Of a DNA stretch of 64,000 bases, positions 39,883 through 47,289 are shown one piece after another (position 1 is the first letter of the stretch; every line of letters begins with the position of its first letter). The notes beneath the pieces are model-generated. The model was not told where the DNA came from. It saw nothing but the letters and a program-made list of their open reading frames with translations, and did no database searches. The DNA is from Anaerolineae bacterium (lineage in GTDB: Bacteria > Chloroflexota > Anaerolineae > UBA3071). Location: the NCBI GenBank assembly GCA_029907105.1, contig JARYMM010000014.1, positions 1 through 64,000 on the forward strand, written 5' to 3'. The position numbers and the translations under genes are program-made.

Positions 39883-40103
39883 TGAATTGGACGAACAGGG
39901 ATAAGGCGGTGAAAGGTTGGAACCATCATTCAAGGTCTGACCTTCTGCCAGCGAGAGGGACGCCTCCTTGTCCCACATGAAGGGGGATGGCTGTCTGCCG
40001 ACAGGCCATCCCCTCTTGTCGTCCGGCAGAGAGGCTCGATCCCAGAAGCCCACGTCGCAAGGAAGGCCAGCCGCACCGATCTGTGTCAAGGAGACGTAAG
40101 AAC

Positions 40104-40544
40104 ATGCCCAAGATCTCAGTTGTAGATGACGATCCCGACTTCGTGTTGCTCTGCCGTGCCATCCTGGAAGCGGAGGGCCACGAAGTCGTCGCCGCGGCCG
40201 ACGGCGACGAAGCGCTGAAGGTAATGCGCCAGGACAAGCCCGACCTGGTCTTGCTGGATGTGATGATGTCCACCACGCTGGAAGGAGTGGTTGTCTCCAA
40301 GGAAATCGAGGCAGACCCGGAACTGCGCAACGTGCCCGTCGTCATGATCTCCTCCATCGCCACCTCCGAGTACGCCGCCGAGTTCCCTGACGACGAGGGC
40401 ATCCCTATCGCCGTCTGGATCCCCAAACCCATTCAGCCAGCCGTGCTGTTGAAGACCGTGCGGCGGTTCTTGCCCCCGCCTCCCCCAGCCATCGCCAAAG
40501 AAGCTGTCGTCGAAAGAGAGGAGGCAGGTGACGATGATTGGTGA
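40104..40544 (+). CDS. CheY-like response regulator with proline-rich tail
   Basis: KISVVDDDPDFVLLCRAILEAEGHEV...PDLVLLDVMMSTTLEGVVVSKEI...VWIPKPIQPAVLLKTV. Confidence 0.9.
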   Translation: MPKISVVDDDPDFVLLCRAILEAEGHEVVAAADGDEALKVMRQDKPDLVLLDVMMSTTLEGVVVSKEIEADPELRNVPVVMISSIATSEYAAEFPDDEGIPIAVWIPKPIQPAVLLKTVRRFLPPPPPAIAKEAVVEREEAGDDDW

Positions 40545-41736
40545 GCTTCCCCCCCTTCTGACTGCCGAGCAGGTGGACCGCGACTTCATCAAACTGGTCG
40601 AGCCGGACTGGCAGAAGCTGACCACGTGCTTCCAATGCGGCACGTGTAGCGCCTCCTGCCCGGCCGCCGAATTGATGGACTACGCGCCCCGACAATTGTG
40701 GGAGCTGGTACGGTTGGGGTTACGGGAGCAGGTGACGAACAGCCGCACCTTCTGGCTGTGCACCCAGTGCTACGCCTGCCAGGTGCGCTGCCCCCGCGGC
40801 ATCCTGATCGGCGAGACCATGCGCCACCTGCGCGAGTGGGCGGTGGCCCAGGGCCTTGAGATTCCCCCGGCGCTGATACAACTGCGGGACGCCGTCGCCG
40901 CCACCTACAACATCCTGAACGAGGACAACCGCTCCCGCCTGATCTGGAGCGAGAACCTGGAGCCGGCGCCGGCCCAGCTCCGCCAGAGCGGGCAGGGCCA
41001 GGCCGAGGTGCTGCTCTTCACCGGTTGCGTCTCGTCGTTTTATCCCATGGCCTACACCATCCCCCAGTCCTTCGTGCAGATTCTGGAACAGGCGGGCGTG
41101 ACCTACACCACGATGGGCGGCGAGGAGTGGTGCTGCGGCTATCCGCTCTACGGCGCGGGGATGAAGGAGCGGGTGGGCGAGTTGGCCCGCCATAACATCG
41201 AACAGGCCCGGGCCCGGGCACCGCAGAGCCTGGTCGCCACCTGCTCGTCCTGTTATCACACCTGGCGTCATCTCTATCCTGAGTACATGAACGGTCAGCA
41301 GGATTTCGGCTTCCAGATCCTGCACGCCAGCGAGTTTCTGGCGCGCCTCGTCGAAGAGGGCCGTATCAGGATGGGTGAGCTGCCCTGGGTGGTCACTTAC
41401 CACGACCCCTGCGACCTGGGCCGCAAGAACGGGGTATATGAGGCCCCGCGGGCCGTCATCCGCAGCATTCCCGGAATGGAACTGCGGGAGATGGCCAACA
41501 ACCGGGAGAACGCCATCTGCTGTGGCGGCGGTGGAGACGTGGCCATTATGGAGGCCGACGTCACCGAGCACATCGCCGAGCGCCGCCTGGCGCAGGCCGT
41601 GGCCACCGGAGCCACGGCCATCATCTCCTCCTGCCAGCAATGCAAGCGCACGCTGCTACAGGCGGCGCGCAAGACCAAAACCCGCATCCGCGTGCTTGAC
41701 ATCACCGAGCTGGTCTGGCAGGCAATGGAGAAGTAG
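40534..41736 (+). CDS. Heterodisulfide reductase HdrC-HdrB fusion (HdrD-like, two CCG domains)
   Basis: CFQCGTCSASCP and CTQCYACQVRCPRG 4Fe-4S motifs, then two CCG-type modules (WCCGYPLYGAG; ICCGGGGD; SCQQCKRTLLQAA). Confidence 0.88.
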   Translation: MIGELPPLLTAEQVDRDFIKLVEPDWQKLTTCFQCGTCSASCPAAELMDYAPRQLWELVRLGLREQVTNSRTFWLCTQCYACQVRCPRGILIGETMRHLREWAVAQGLEIPPALIQLRDAVAATYNILNEDNRSRLIWSENLEPAPAQLRQSGQGQAEVLLFTGCVSSFYPMAYTIPQSFVQILEQAGVTYTTMGGEEWCCGYPLYGAGMKERVGELARHNIEQARARAPQSLVATCSSCYHTWRHLYPEYMNGQQDFGFQILHASEFLARLVEEGRIRMGELPWVVTYHDPCDLGRKNGVYEAPRAVIRSIPGMELREMANNRENAICCGGGGDVAIMEADVTEHIAERRLAQAVATGATAIISSCQQCKRTLLQAARKTKTRIRVLDITELVWQAMEK

Positions 41737-41840: not shown

Positions 41841-43808
41841 ATGGACGAAGAACCGAGGATTGGCGTATACGTCTGCGAATGTGGCATCAACATCGGCGCT
41901 ATAGTGGATGTGGCCGATGTGGTGCGTTTTGCCGAGGGGCTGCCCAACGTGGTCGTAGCCCGGCAGTCCCGCTATATCTGCTCCGAAGCCGGACAGGAAA
42001 TGATCCGGCAGGACATCAGGGACCTCCACCTCAACCGCGTGGTGGTGGCCTCCTGCTCGCCGCGCATGCACGAGGTCACCTTCCAGAACGCCGTCGCCGG
42101 GGCGGGCCTGAACCCTTATTACTTCCAGATGGCCAACATCCGCGAGCATGTCTCGTGGGTGGTGAAGGACCCAAAGCAGGCCACGGCCAAAGCCAAACGG
42201 CTGGTGCGCGCGGCGGTGGCCCGTGTGAACTGGCACGAACCCCTCCAGGCCCGCCAGGAGGATGTGACCCCGGCGGCGCTGATCGTGGGTGGCGGCATCG
42301 CCGGCATCCAGGCCGCGCTGAACATCGCCGAAGGGGGCTACCAGGTCTACCTGGTGGAGCGCCAACCCTCCATCGGCGGGCACATGGCCCAACTGGACAA
42401 GACCTTTCCCACCCTCGACTGCAGCACTTGAATTCTGGGGCCCAAGATGATGGATGCCGGTCGGCATCCCCACATCACCCTCCTCACCTACAGCGAAGTG
42501 GAAGAGGTCTCGGGCTACGTGGGCCACTTCAAGGTCAAGGTGCGCCAACGCCCCCGTTACGTGGACATGGAGCTGTGCACCGGCTGCGGGGCCTGCGCCG
42601 AGGCCTGCGTTTTCAAGAAGGGCGTGCCCAACGAATATGACGCCGGGCTAAGCCGGCGGCGGGCGGCTTATATCCCCTTGAACGGCCAGGGCGTCCCCAT
42701 GAAGGCGGTCATTGACGATCAGGCATGCCTGTACCTGACCCGCGGCAGGTGCACGCAGGCCTGTCTGGAAGCCTGCCCCACCCGGGCCATCAACTTCGAG
42801 CAGAAGGAAGAGATCGTCGAGCTGGACGTGGGAGCCATTATCATAGCCACGGGCTTCGAGATGTTCGACCCTCATCGCCTCCCGGCCTTCTCTTACGGCC
42901 GGTCGCCCAACATCGTGGACGGATTGCAGTTCGAGCGGCTGTCCAGCGCCACGGGGCCGACGCAGGGCCAGATCCTCACCGCCGAGGGCAAGAGGCCGGA
43001 ACGGGTGGCCATCATCCACTGCGTGGGCAGCCGCGACGAGCACGCCAACCGCTACTGCTCCCGCGTCTGCTGCATGTACGCCCTCAAGCACGCCCACCTG
43101 GTGCGCGACAAGACCGGGGCGGAGGTGTTTGAGTTCTACATGGACATCCGCGCCTTCGGCAAAGACTACGAGGAGTTCTACGAGCGAGTGCAGGAAGAGG
43201 GCGTCTATTTCGTCCGCGGCCGGGGGGCGGAGGTGGTCGTCCTGGACGACGGCCGCATCCAGGTCAAAGCCGAAAACACCACCCTGGGCATCCCCGTACA
43301 GATCAACGTGGACATGGTCATCCTGGCCACAGCCATGGAGCCGCCACGCGACGCCGACAGGGTGGCTTCCATCTTCGGCATCAGCCGCAGCGCCGACGGC
43401 TTCTTCCAGGAGGCCCACCCCAAGCTGCGGCCTTTCCACACCAACACCGAGGGCATCTTCCTGGCCGGGAGCTGTCAGTCGCCCAAGGACGTGCCGGATA
43501 CGGTGGCCCATGCCAGCGCCGCCGCCGCCGAGGTGCTGTCGCTCCTGAGCCGGGGCCAGGTGGTCATCTCCCCCACCACGGCCGTGGTGGACGAACAGCT
43601 ATGCTCCGGCTGCAAGACCTGCATCCCGCTGTGCCCCTACACGGCCATCAGCTTTGTCAGCCAGGATACCACCGGCGTGGCGACGATCAACGAGGCGCTG
43701 TGCAAGGGCTGCGGCACCTGTGTGGCTGCCTGTCCTGCCGGGGCCATCACCGCGCGCCACTTTTCCGACCGTCAGATCCTGGCCGAGATCGAAGCGCTGC
43801 TGCGGTAG
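41841..43808 (+). CDS. hdrA: Heterodisulfide reductase subunit A, probable selenoprotein (UGA 42429-42431 read as Sec)
   Basis: Two same-frame ORFs (41841-42431 and 42447-43808) joined across TGA: [54 protein letters not shown]; FAD site LIVGGGIAGIQAALNIA; ferredoxin motifs CTGCGACAEACVFKKG, CSGCKTCIPLCPY, CKGCGTCVAACP. Confidence 0.88.
42429..42476 (+). promoter_or_regulatory. Bacterial SECIS-like hairpin following the UGA
   Basis: GATG(42446-42449)..GGATGCC-GGTC-GGCATCC(42452-42469)..CATC(42473-42476): 7-bp apical stem, GGUC loop, internal loop, 4-bp lower stem. Confidence 0.72.
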
Positions 43809-43821
43809 CAGGAGTGATGAC

Positions 43822-44262
43822 ATGGGCGACAACAACTTTGAACCGAAGATCGTGGGCTTCCTGTGCAACTGGTGCACCTACACGGCGGCCGACTCCGCCG
43901 GCGTGAGCCGTATGGAACAGCCCCCCAATGTGGACATCATCCGCGTCATGTGCTCGGGGCGCATTGACCCCGCCTTCATCCTCAAGGCTTTCGCCGAAGG
44001 GGCCGATGGCGTCATCGTCTCCGGCTGCCATCCGCCGGGCGATTGCCACTACAGCACCGGCAATTTCAAGACCTTCCGCCGCATGCCGCTGGTGGAAGCG
44101 CTGTTGGCTCAGTACGGCATCGAGAAGGAACGCTTTCACTGGGGCTGGATCTCGGGCGCTGAGGCGGTCAAGTGGGCCCAGTTGGTACGCGATTTCACCG
44201 CCCAGGTGCGCGCCCTGGGGCCGCTCAACTGGAAGCAGCAACTGGCGAGCAAGGAGGACTAG
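43822..44262 (+). CDS. mvhD: Methyl-viologen-reducing-type hydrogenase delta subunit
   Basis: IVGFLCNWCTYTAADSAG...IRVMCSGRIDPAFILKAFAEGADGVIVSGCHPPGDCHYSTGN. Confidence 0.93.
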   Translation: MGDNNFEPKIVGFLCNWCTYTAADSAGVSRMEQPPNVDIIRVMCSGRIDPAFILKAFAEGADGVIVSGCHPPGDCHYSTGNFKTFRRMPLVEALLAQYGIEKERFHWGWISGAEAVKWAQLVRDFTAQVRALGPLNWKQQLASKED

Positions 44263-44265
44263 GTC

Positions 44266-45237
44266 ATGGGACAGAACAGCAAACTCAAGCTGGGCCTGTA
44301 CTGGGCCGCTTCCTGCGGCGGCTGCGAGATCGCCATCGTGGAACTGCGGGAAAAGATCCTCGACCTGGATGCCGCGGCCGACATCCTCTTCTGGCCCGTG
44401 GCCCTGGACTTCAAGTATAAGGACGTGGAGGCCATGCCCGACGGACACATGGATGTCTGCCTCTTTAACGGTTCCATCCGCACCAGCGAGAACGAGCACA
44501 TGGCTCATCTCCTGCGCCGAAAGTCAAAGGTGCTGGTGGCCTTCGGTTCCTGTGCCCACGAGGGCTGCATCCCCGGCCTGGCCAACCTCTTCGACCGACA
44601 GACGATTTTCCAGCGCGTCTACCTGGAGACGCCCTCCACGGATAACGCACAGGGCCTGCTGCCCCAGACCTCGACCCAGATGCCGGAGGGCGAAGTGACC
44701 ATCCCCAGGTTCTACAACACGGTCAAGACGCTGGCTCAGGTGGTGGATGTGGATTACACCGTGCCCGGCTGCCCGCCGCAGGCCCCGCAAATCTGGGCGG
44801 TGATCGAGACAATCCTCAGCGGCCAGCTTCCGCCCAGGGGGAGCGTGGTGGGGGCGAACGAGAAGACGGTCTGCGACGAGTGCAAGCACAAGCGAGAGGA
44901 GAAGCACATCAAGAAGTTCTACCGCCCGCATGAAATCATCCCCGACCCCGATCGCTGTCTCTTCGATCAGGGGATCATCTGTGCCGGGCCGGCCACGCGC
45001 GGCTGCGGCGCGCTCTGCCCGACGGTAAACATGCCCTGCCGCGGCTGTTACGGCCCGCCGCCCAACGTGATAGATCAGGGCGCCGCGCTCCTTTCGGCGG
45101 TGGCCTCGGTGGTGGACGCCGATACCGAGGAGGAAGCCGCCCGCATCGTGGGCGAGATCGTGGACCCTGTGGGCACGTTCTATCGCTTTGGCCTGCCCGC
45201 ATCGCTACTGCATCGCTCGCGGTTGGCAGATCGGTAG
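44266..45237 (+). CDS. mvhG: F420-nonreducing-type [NiFe] hydrogenase small subunit
   Basis: GLYWAASCGGCEIAIVELREKILD...VAFGSCAHEGCIPGLANLF...VDYTVPGCPPQAPQIW...GCGALCPTVNMPCRGCYGPPP. Confidence 0.93.
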   Translation: MGQNSKLKLGLYWAASCGGCEIAIVELREKILDLDAAADILFWPVALDFKYKDVEAMPDGHMDVCLFNGSIRTSENEHMAHLLRRKSKVLVAFGSCAHEGCIPGLANLFDRQTIFQRVYLETPSTDNAQGLLPQTSTQMPEGEVTIPRFYNTVKTLAQVVDVDYTVPGCPPQAPQIWAVIETILSGQLPPRGSVVGANEKTVCDECKHKREEKHIKKFYRPHEIIPDPDRCLFDQGIICAGPATRGCGALCPTVNMPCRGCYGPPPNVIDQGAALLSAVASVVDADTEEEAARIVGEIVDPVGTFYRFGLPASLLHRSRLADR

Positions 45238-45266: not shown

Positions 45267-46730
45267 ATGCAGAAGATCAGCATTGACCCCATCACCCGCC
45301 TGGAAGGCCACGGACGGGTGGACATCTTTCTCGACGAAGAAGGGAACGTCGCCAACGCCTACCTGGTCATCCCCGAGCTGCGGGGGTTCGAGAAGTTCGC
45401 CGAAGGCCGGCCTGTGGAGGAGATGCCACGCATCACCCCGCGCATCTGCGGCGTCTGCCCGGAGGCGCACCACATGGCCTCGGCCAAGGCCTGCGATGCC
45501 GTCTACCACGTCGAGGTGCCGCCCGCCGGCCGCAAGCTGCGCGAGTTGCTCTACTCCGCCTTCTACGTCGCCGACCATACGGTGCATTTCTACATCCTGG
45601 CCGCGCCCGACTTTGTCCTGGGGCCAGATGCCCCGCCCGCCGAGCGCAACATCCTGGGCCTGATCCACAAGGTCGGCCTGGACATTGGCAGCAAGGTCAT
45701 CCGCTGTCGAGGGATGGCTATGGACATCGTGGGCACGCTGGGCGGCAAGACCATCCACCCGGTAGGGGCCATCCCCGGCGGGGTGAGCAAAGCCATCAAC
45801 GAGGAGGAGCGAGCCCGGTTCGAGGCCATTGGTCATGAACTGGTCGAGTTCGGCCTGTTCAGCCTCCAGCTCTTCCGCGAAGTCGTGCTGGGCAACCCGG
45901 CCTACGTGGACATGATCCTCTCCGACGCCTACACGACGCCGATGTACTACATGGGCCTGGTGGACGAGAACAACAAGGTCAACTTCTACGACGGCCAGGT
46001 ACGCGTTGTGGACCCGGAGGGGAAAGAGTTCGTCAAGTACAGGCCGGAGCAATACCTGGACGTGGTGGCCGAGCGGGTCGAGCCCTGGACTTATCTGAAG
46101 TTCCCCTATCTCAAAAAGGTCGGCTGGCGGGGGCTGGTGACAGGCAAGGAGAGCGGCGTCTACCAGGCCACGCCCCTGGCGCGGCTCAATGTCGCCGATG
46201 GCATGGCCACGCCGCGAGCACAGGAGGCCTACGAGGAGTTCTATGCCACGCTGGGCGGCAAGCCGGTGCACCACCTCCTGGCCACGCACTGGGCACGGCT
46301 GATCGAATTGCTCTACGCCGCCGAGCGGCTGGTCGAGCTGGCCACCGATCCCGAGATCACCGATCCGCACGTGCGCAACATCCCCACGGCGACGCCGGAT
46401 GAGGGCGTGGGCATCGTGGAAGCGCCGCGCGGCACGCTGACTCACCATTTCATTACCGATGAGAGGGGCATCGTCCAGAAATGCAACCTCATCGTCGGCA
46501 CGACCAACAATTACGCCCCGATCTCGATCTCGATCAAGAAAGCGGCCCAGGCGCTGATCAAAAAAGGCCAGGTCATCAGCGAGGGGCTGCTGAACCGGGT
46601 GGAAATGGCTTTCCGCCCGTACGATCCCTGCTTCGGCTGTGCCACACACTCGTTGCCCGGCCAGATGCCGCTGGAGGTGGTCATCCACGACGCCGAGGGG
46701 AAGGTGGTGGAGAGGTTGGCAAACTGGTAG
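45267..46730 (+). CDS. mvhA: [NiFe] hydrogenase large subunit, Mvh type
   Basis: [32 protein letters not shown]-terminal DPCFGCATH. Confidence 0.95.
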
Positions 46731-46749: not shown

Positions 46750-47289
46750 ATGATGACGGAGTGGTCAGCCAGGACAGATTCCCGACTCGCCGGTTTACCG
46801 GTTCCCCAATCTGCCGCGAAAACGCTGGTACTGGGGTTGGGCAATCCTATCCTCAGCGACGATGGGGTGGGCATTCACGTCGTGCGCGCCGTGGCAGGGC
46901 GCTGCCAGCAAGCGGACGTGGACTTCGCCGAGACCAGCGTGGGCGGATTGCGCCTGCTGGAGATCATCGCCGGCTACAGGCGGGTGATCCTGGTGGATGC
47001 GATCCAGACCCCTGATGGCTGCCCAGGCGCTCTCTACCGTCTGCATCCCAACGACCTGCGGGCCTCGTTGCATACCGGCTCCAGCCACGATCTCACGCTG
47101 CCCAGCGCGCTGGCCCTGGGGCGGGGCCTGGGCCTGCCCTTGCCCCAAGACGACGCCATCACCATCCTGGCGGTGGAAGTCGAAGATACGCTCACCTTTG
47201 GGGAGCAGTGCAGTCACCCCGTGCAGGCAGCCATCCCCCAGCTTGTCCAGAGGGTCCTGGCCGAGATCGGCACGCCGGCCGGGCCGTAA
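46750..47289 (+). CDS. Hydrogenase maturation protease
   Basis: KTLVLGLGNPILSDDGVGIHVVRAV...VDFAETSVGGLRLLEIIAGYRRVILVDAIQT. Confidence 0.9.
   Translation: MMTEWSARTDSRLAGLPVPQSAAKTLVLGLGNPILSDDGVGIHVVRAVAGRCQQADVDFAETSVGGLRLLEIIAGYRRVILVDAIQTPDGCPGALYRLHPNDLRASLHTGSSHDLTLPSALALGRGLGLPLPQDDAITILAVEVEDTLTFGEQCSHPVQAAIPQLVQRVLAEIGTPAGP

Follow-up and report, generated by a model that had tools for sequence, protein, structure and literature searches.

Does an in-frame TGA break the hdrA gene of an uncultured Anaerolineae bacterium, or is it read as selenocysteine (Sec)? The question arises in a stretch of 64,000 nucleotides, here called the window. On its forward strand two open reading frames, 41841..42431 and 42447..43808, lie in the same frame and are interrupted by the TGA at 42429-42431. 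We hold with high confidence that they are one gene. It would encode a full-length Sec-containing HdrA, made with the help of a SECIS element inside the coding sequence, which would work in an H2-linked Hdr complex with Sec197 as a likely Fe-S ligand.

One HdrA frame across a TGA codon

The selenoprotein form of hdrA spans 41841..43808 on the forward strand and has 655 codons, followed by a TAG stop at 43806. The TGA (42429..42431, same strand) is codon 197. It is the only in-frame TGA of the gene, and the frame is intact on both sides. If it is decoded as one residue, the product is a single HdrA of 655 amino acids with U at position 197 ([39 protein letters not shown] around the junction).

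An earlier note on this DNA had joined the two reading frames in this way, and had described both halves as otherwise intact and typical of HdrA. Both statements hold up. Read-through gives one protein, and phmmer aligns it over its full length (residues 3-654) with the solved HdrA chains 8rvu, 5odc, 7bkb and others, with E-values down to 8e-229. The protein has an N-terminal Fe-S domain, a thioredoxin-reductase-like FAD domain, and inserted and C-terminal ferredoxin domains; Fer4 domains were found. The NCBIfam HdrA models match with E-values down to 3e-248, yet the protein stays under the curated cut-offs of these models, which are longer (762-777 positions).

The note also placed the UGA at a conserved Cys of HdrA, and stated that Sec is known at this site in some HdrA proteins. 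The alignments and the literature agree with it. U197 lies opposite Cys in the chains that were inspected (DCSMC of 8rvu and DCSIC of 5odc), and counting along the phmmer alignment gives residue number 197 in 5odc as well, so the TGA is in register with Cys197 of that protein. That the HdrA family includes selenoproteins is documented (PMC1794560, PMC5029168, PMC11097638): PMC5029168 counts 103 bacterial ones from 42 organisms, and expression of HdrAU in M. maripaludis depends on selenium (PMC11097638). The motif in the window protein is C194-S-T-U197. Cys194 is invariant in Sec and Cys forms, and C12, C14, C47 and C72 are likewise invariant across all compared homologs of both kinds.

The homolog set consists of 116 non-redundant HdrA rows, from loci on genome contigs and in relatives. 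Codon 197 is TGC in 39 of these and TGT in 38 (together 77 of 116), and TGA in 37, so that 114 rows have one of these three codons. A divergent protein has GCG there, and one row lacks the codon. It is never TAA or TAG. A pattern that left wobble positions free was searched in 396 genomes of the class and found 80 TGA-HdrA sites in 54 of them. Neighbours at 83-85% identity also have TGA at this codon. Of the TGA records that carry a name, those closest to the window come from Chloroflexota MAGs (Anaerolineae, Thermoflexales and unclassified Chloroflexi).

In a single genome, a sequencing or assembly error would look just the same, as would a recent nonsense mutation: one base turns TGC or TGT into TGA, and the host genome is a MAG of 133 contigs. 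The gene would then be a normal Cys-HdrA or a pseudogene. With TGA at this position in 37 of the 116 non-redundant homologs, however, chance and faulty base calling are no explanation. The recurrence in 54 of 396 genomes, the shared TGA of the close neighbours, the intact downstream frames and the frozen hairpin described below also argue against this reading, which has practically no probability left. It is already refuted by the comparative data.

Another thought is that HdrA is naturally split here: translation would stop at the UGA and start again at the ATG at 42447, 16 nt past it, giving two polypeptides. Split HdrA genes are indeed known in some bacteria (PMC1794560). But the break would fall in the FAD domain, at the conserved Cys, and the ATG is within an MM that is common to all such Sec homologs and adjoins the RNA element. 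The UGA is also never swapped for another stop codon among the 116 homologs. A split protein is therefore highly improbable.

A hairpin in the gene and Sec machinery in the genome

The candidate SECIS hairpin, GGATGCC-GGTC-GGCATCC, lies at 42452..42469 on the forward strand. Its 7-bp stem pairs 42452-42458 with 42463-42469 around a GGUC apical loop at 42459-42462, with 27 nt between the UGA and the loop. The folding energy is -11.5 kcal/mol.

As a single hairpin it is not exceptional by folding alone. The z-score is -0.86, 41 of 200 shuffles fold equally well, and 44 of the 1733 TGA triplets in the window are followed by a hairpin that is at least as stable. Rfam at gathering threshold reports only a tRNA in the window and no SECIS family. 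The hairpin satisfies every constraint that the published bSECIS model (PMC13188914) sets (GGUC, 7 bp, 27 nt). So do 158 of the 1733 TGA triplets in the window, which makes the model weak evidence by itself. The RNA case thus rests on comparison.

Anaerolineae-type Sec genes have this hairpin in common. The class consensus GGAUG[C/U]C-GGUC-G[G/A]CAUCC is found 27 nt past the UGA in all 80 TGA sites of the 54 genomes, where the sequences are related and the counts are therefore not independent events. Codons 205, 207 and 209 are GAT, GGT and CAT in every one of these sites. At codon 206, 59 sites have GCC and 21 have GTC; at codon 208, 62 have CGG and 18 have CGA. Counted from the T of TGA, this makes pair 29:36 C-G in 59 sites, U-A in 18, U-G in 3 and C-A in none; the covariation is confined to this one stem pair, among related sequences. 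In an alignment of 23 sequences, 99.4% of the stem cells are paired, and a single pair is altered on both sides.

The hairpin codons have a mean entropy of 0.07 bits, versus 1.07 elsewhere. The set used here comprises 209 conserved degenerate codon columns in 30 Sec genes, with a mean of 1.05 bits, and no random draw of six columns out of 200000 reached the level of the hairpin. Within the host genome, the hairpin occurs only in its two Sec-hdrA genes, and in 60 relatives its sites coincide with the Sec-hdrA pattern sites. With the conservation and covariation across the class, the low entropy shows that the hairpin is under strong constraint as RNA.

Five loci (L135-L139) have longer HdrA frames, with about 820-980 codons open, and their TGA falls on the same site, DCSI-U. 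In three of these loci codon 206 is the V variant, and the SECIS pairing is U-A or U-G.

The earlier note had named selA, selB, selC and selD as genes to look for, and all four are present in the host genome, a MAG of 3.78 Mb that is 92.7% complete. There is a tRNA-Sec (selC) with anticodon TCA, a SelB with its C-terminal winged helix in a frame of 654 amino acids, a SelA match of 469 bits and a SelD match of 371 bits. SelD has an in-frame TGA of its own at residue 21 (U21). A formate dehydrogenase alpha subunit, FdhA, also has one, within ARLUHS, at position 129 of the stretch that was matched. The hairpins predicted after the TGAs of SelD and FdhA have loops that start with GGU, like that of hdrA.

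A second HdrA of this genome, on contig C56 (C56:96112-98049, locus L023, G000:C56:88000-106000), shares the TGA codon and the hairpin with the window gene, and the surrounding sequence is near-identical. It is near HdrB/HdrC-type reading frames; the Sec FdhA gene with the in-frame TGA (C56:90862-92898) follows at a distance of a few kb on the same strand. Other HdrA paralogs of the genome have Cys at the site (DCSAC, DCSSC, DCSQC, DCAMC).

With Cys at codon 197 the enzyme would also work, so a UGA read as Cys or Trp, through a reassigned code or a suppressor tRNA, deserves a mention. Against it are the canonical tRNA-Sec, SelA, SelB and SelD, the restriction of in-frame TGA to codon 197, and a SECIS-like hairpin that follows this HdrA type only. 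The chance of such a reading is very small.

The TGA in the Cys register, the Sec machinery and the conserved, covarying hairpin together argue for a real selenoprotein, and actual insertion of Sec at codon 197 is very likely. SelB, guided by the SECIS within the coding sequence, would deliver Sec-tRNA-Sec at this codon, after which translation would run on to the TAG.

Presence of SelB does not separate genomes with Sec-HdrA from those with Cys-HdrA: 52 of 60 relatives carry it. One TGA-HdrA (G049:C44:31061-33016) is in a genome in which the search gave no SelB match. That genome is a 91% complete MAG, and the absence is probably a matter of missing sequence.

The operon and the role of residue 197

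The gene sits among plausible partners, all on the forward strand. Before it is a fused HdrC-HdrB-like protein (40528..41736), with Fer4 and two CCG domains and no in-frame TGA. After it come an mvhD/vhuD-like FlpD subunit (43822..44262), an mvhG/vhuG-like small hydrogenase subunit (44266..45237), an mvhA/vhuA-like [NiFe]-hydrogenase large subunit (45267..46730) and a HycI-type hydrogenase maturation protease (46750..47289). The mvhD/vhuD-like subunit has CNWCTY without an in-frame TGA, and is therefore not a Sec form. The large subunit ends in DPCFGCATH, with Cys and not Sec.

HdrBC, MvhD, MvhG and MvhA are all encoded with hdrA in one operon, and the [NiFe]-hydrogenase is group-3c-like. The order HdrBC-HdrA-MvhD-MvhG-MvhA is repeated in L031 and L032, and several Sec-HdrA genes of Dehalococcoidia are also beside a hydrogenase (L053, L054, L059). 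Directly upstream of the operon, at 39987-40544, the window has a response-regulator-like protein, with a homolog at the equivalent place in several relatives (L031, L032, L113 and L117).

The bifurcating Hdr-hydrogenase complex is a known enzyme (PMC6019823, PMC12350162). By analogy with it, the proteins encoded here should form such a complex. HdrA, the HdrBC fusion and the MvhD/G/A-like hydrogenase would then make up an H2-linked Hdr complex for flavin-based electron bifurcation (or confurcation).

For the solved complex, PMC9012536 reports that Cys197 of one HdrA in the dimer serves as a ligand to the N-terminal Fe-S cluster in the other, and that this cluster is on the route to ferredoxin. 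That paper names M. wolfeii as the source organism; the residue number 197 was checked on 5odc. Given that U197 is the same residue as Cys197, a role as ligand in trans is the best supported one. Transferred from the structure described for the Cys enzyme, Sec197 is probably an Fe-S ligand between subunits: it would replace the Cys with which one HdrA completes the N-terminal [4Fe-4S] cluster in its partner, and would tune that cluster.

The residue might instead be a redox-active selenol facing Cys194, as a thioredoxin-like CxxU pair that binds no metal. The motif C194-S-T-U197 with its invariant Cys194 fits this, and the domain has a thioredoxin-reductase fold (PMC12054007). The description of Cys197 as a cluster ligand of the partner HdrA in the solved complex speaks against it (PMC9012536), and we regard this alternative role as rather unlikely. 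In the open-access literature searched for Sec at Cys197 of HdrA, only PMC9012536 came up, and its one mention of selenocysteine concerns formate dehydrogenase.

A search of HdrA for residues that covary with Sec gave six columns. Four of them are the Sec codon or belong to the segment of the RNA element right behind it, so there is no clear co-adaptation at the level of the protein.

Known relatives, origin and meaning

Sec-HdrA is in itself already well known, and the window gene is a well-supported new case from an uncultured Chloroflexota lineage. HdrAU of Methanococcus maripaludis and other Methanococcales (vhu-hdrAU; PMC11097638, PMC1794560) is of the same family, and similarly has Sec-HdrA beside an F420-non-reducing hydrogenase. 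There, however, the archaeal SECIS is in the 3' UTR, whereas the window gene has its hairpin within the coding sequence. In the archaeal system VhuD and VhuU also contain Sec, while the window operon has Cys in MvhD and in the large subunit of the hydrogenase.

The Sec-HdrA proteins of Syntrophobacter, Syntrophus, Moorella, Carboxydothermus and Syntrophomonas (PMC1794560), compared by description, are from anaerobes and likewise have a bacterial SECIS within the coding sequence. Some are also in hdr-hydrogenase clusters, but the phyla differ from Chloroflexota. The Syntrophobacter operon has additional Sec genes (GlpC, FrhD and FrhA), whereas HdrA alone is a Sec gene in the window operon.

HdrABC-MvhAGD of Methanothermococcus thermolithotrophicus (5odc) and Hdr of Methanothermobacter marburgensis (8rvu) are homologous over the full length of HdrA, with residue 197 in register. 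These complexes have Cys at 197 and separate HdrB and HdrC, in contrast to the Sec and the HdrB-HdrC fusion of the window.

In the accessible parts of two papers on the marine Chloroflexi DscP3, Dsc4 and An-B22 (PMC5736913, PMC4959059), a fused HdrBC, HdrA and MvhD are likewise described for Anaerolineae-type genomes, with a Sec formate dehydrogenase beside Hdr. Those parts mention Sec for formate dehydrogenase and not for HdrA. The part available of a recent review (PMC13188914) does not mention Sec-HdrA of Chloroflexota either. As far as these portions go, the breadth of Sec-HdrA in Anaerolineae-type genomes may thus be unreported.

On the HdrA tree, Sec genes with the hairpin of the window type are found in three places. 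The Sec genes of Dehalococcoidia (L048:2775, L052, L053, L054, L059, L062, L066) form one clade, with another hairpin, UGGCCUC-GGU-GAGGUCA, 23 nt past the UGA, and the peptide UILTPKMASVRS. A test run with codons 160-226 left out rejects a single clade of the window group and the '[12 protein letters not shown]' group of Anaerolineae (p-AU 5e-11, with a log-likelihood lower by 108).

An identical SECIS cassette in HdrA clades that are rejected as one clade suggests exchange of the cassette between hdrA paralogs, or repeated loss. An old Sec gene with several losses is possible. The identity along the gene is patchy, and at synonymous sites immediately around the hairpin the similarity exceeds the background only slightly.

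In a comparison of L061, L069, L078, L091 and L122 with L123-L133, the segment with the Sec codon and the SECIS is near-identical to that of the window group, although the remaining gene groups with Cys-type HdrA; here the single clade is rejected at p-AU 5e-11.

A more ambitious proposal would be that a cassette of codons 197-210 moved between hdrA paralogs by intragenic recombination, repeatedly turning Cys into Sec in Chloroflexota, with Sec as a [4Fe-4S] ligand between subunits. We offer this combination tentatively, as somewhat doubtful.

For annotation, the finding means that automatic methods would cut hdrA, a central gene of energy metabolism, in two. In Anaerolineae-type genomes this is a pattern: a TGA-HdrA is present in at least 54 of the 396 genomes sampled from the class. 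The RNA signal inside the gene also dictates the amino acids G200, M204 and R208, which are not kept in Cys homologs. Finally, Sec and Cys forms of one electron-bifurcating subunit, often within one genome, offer a clean natural comparison. The residue at which the two forms differ is probably a ligand of a cluster that lies on the way to ferredoxin.
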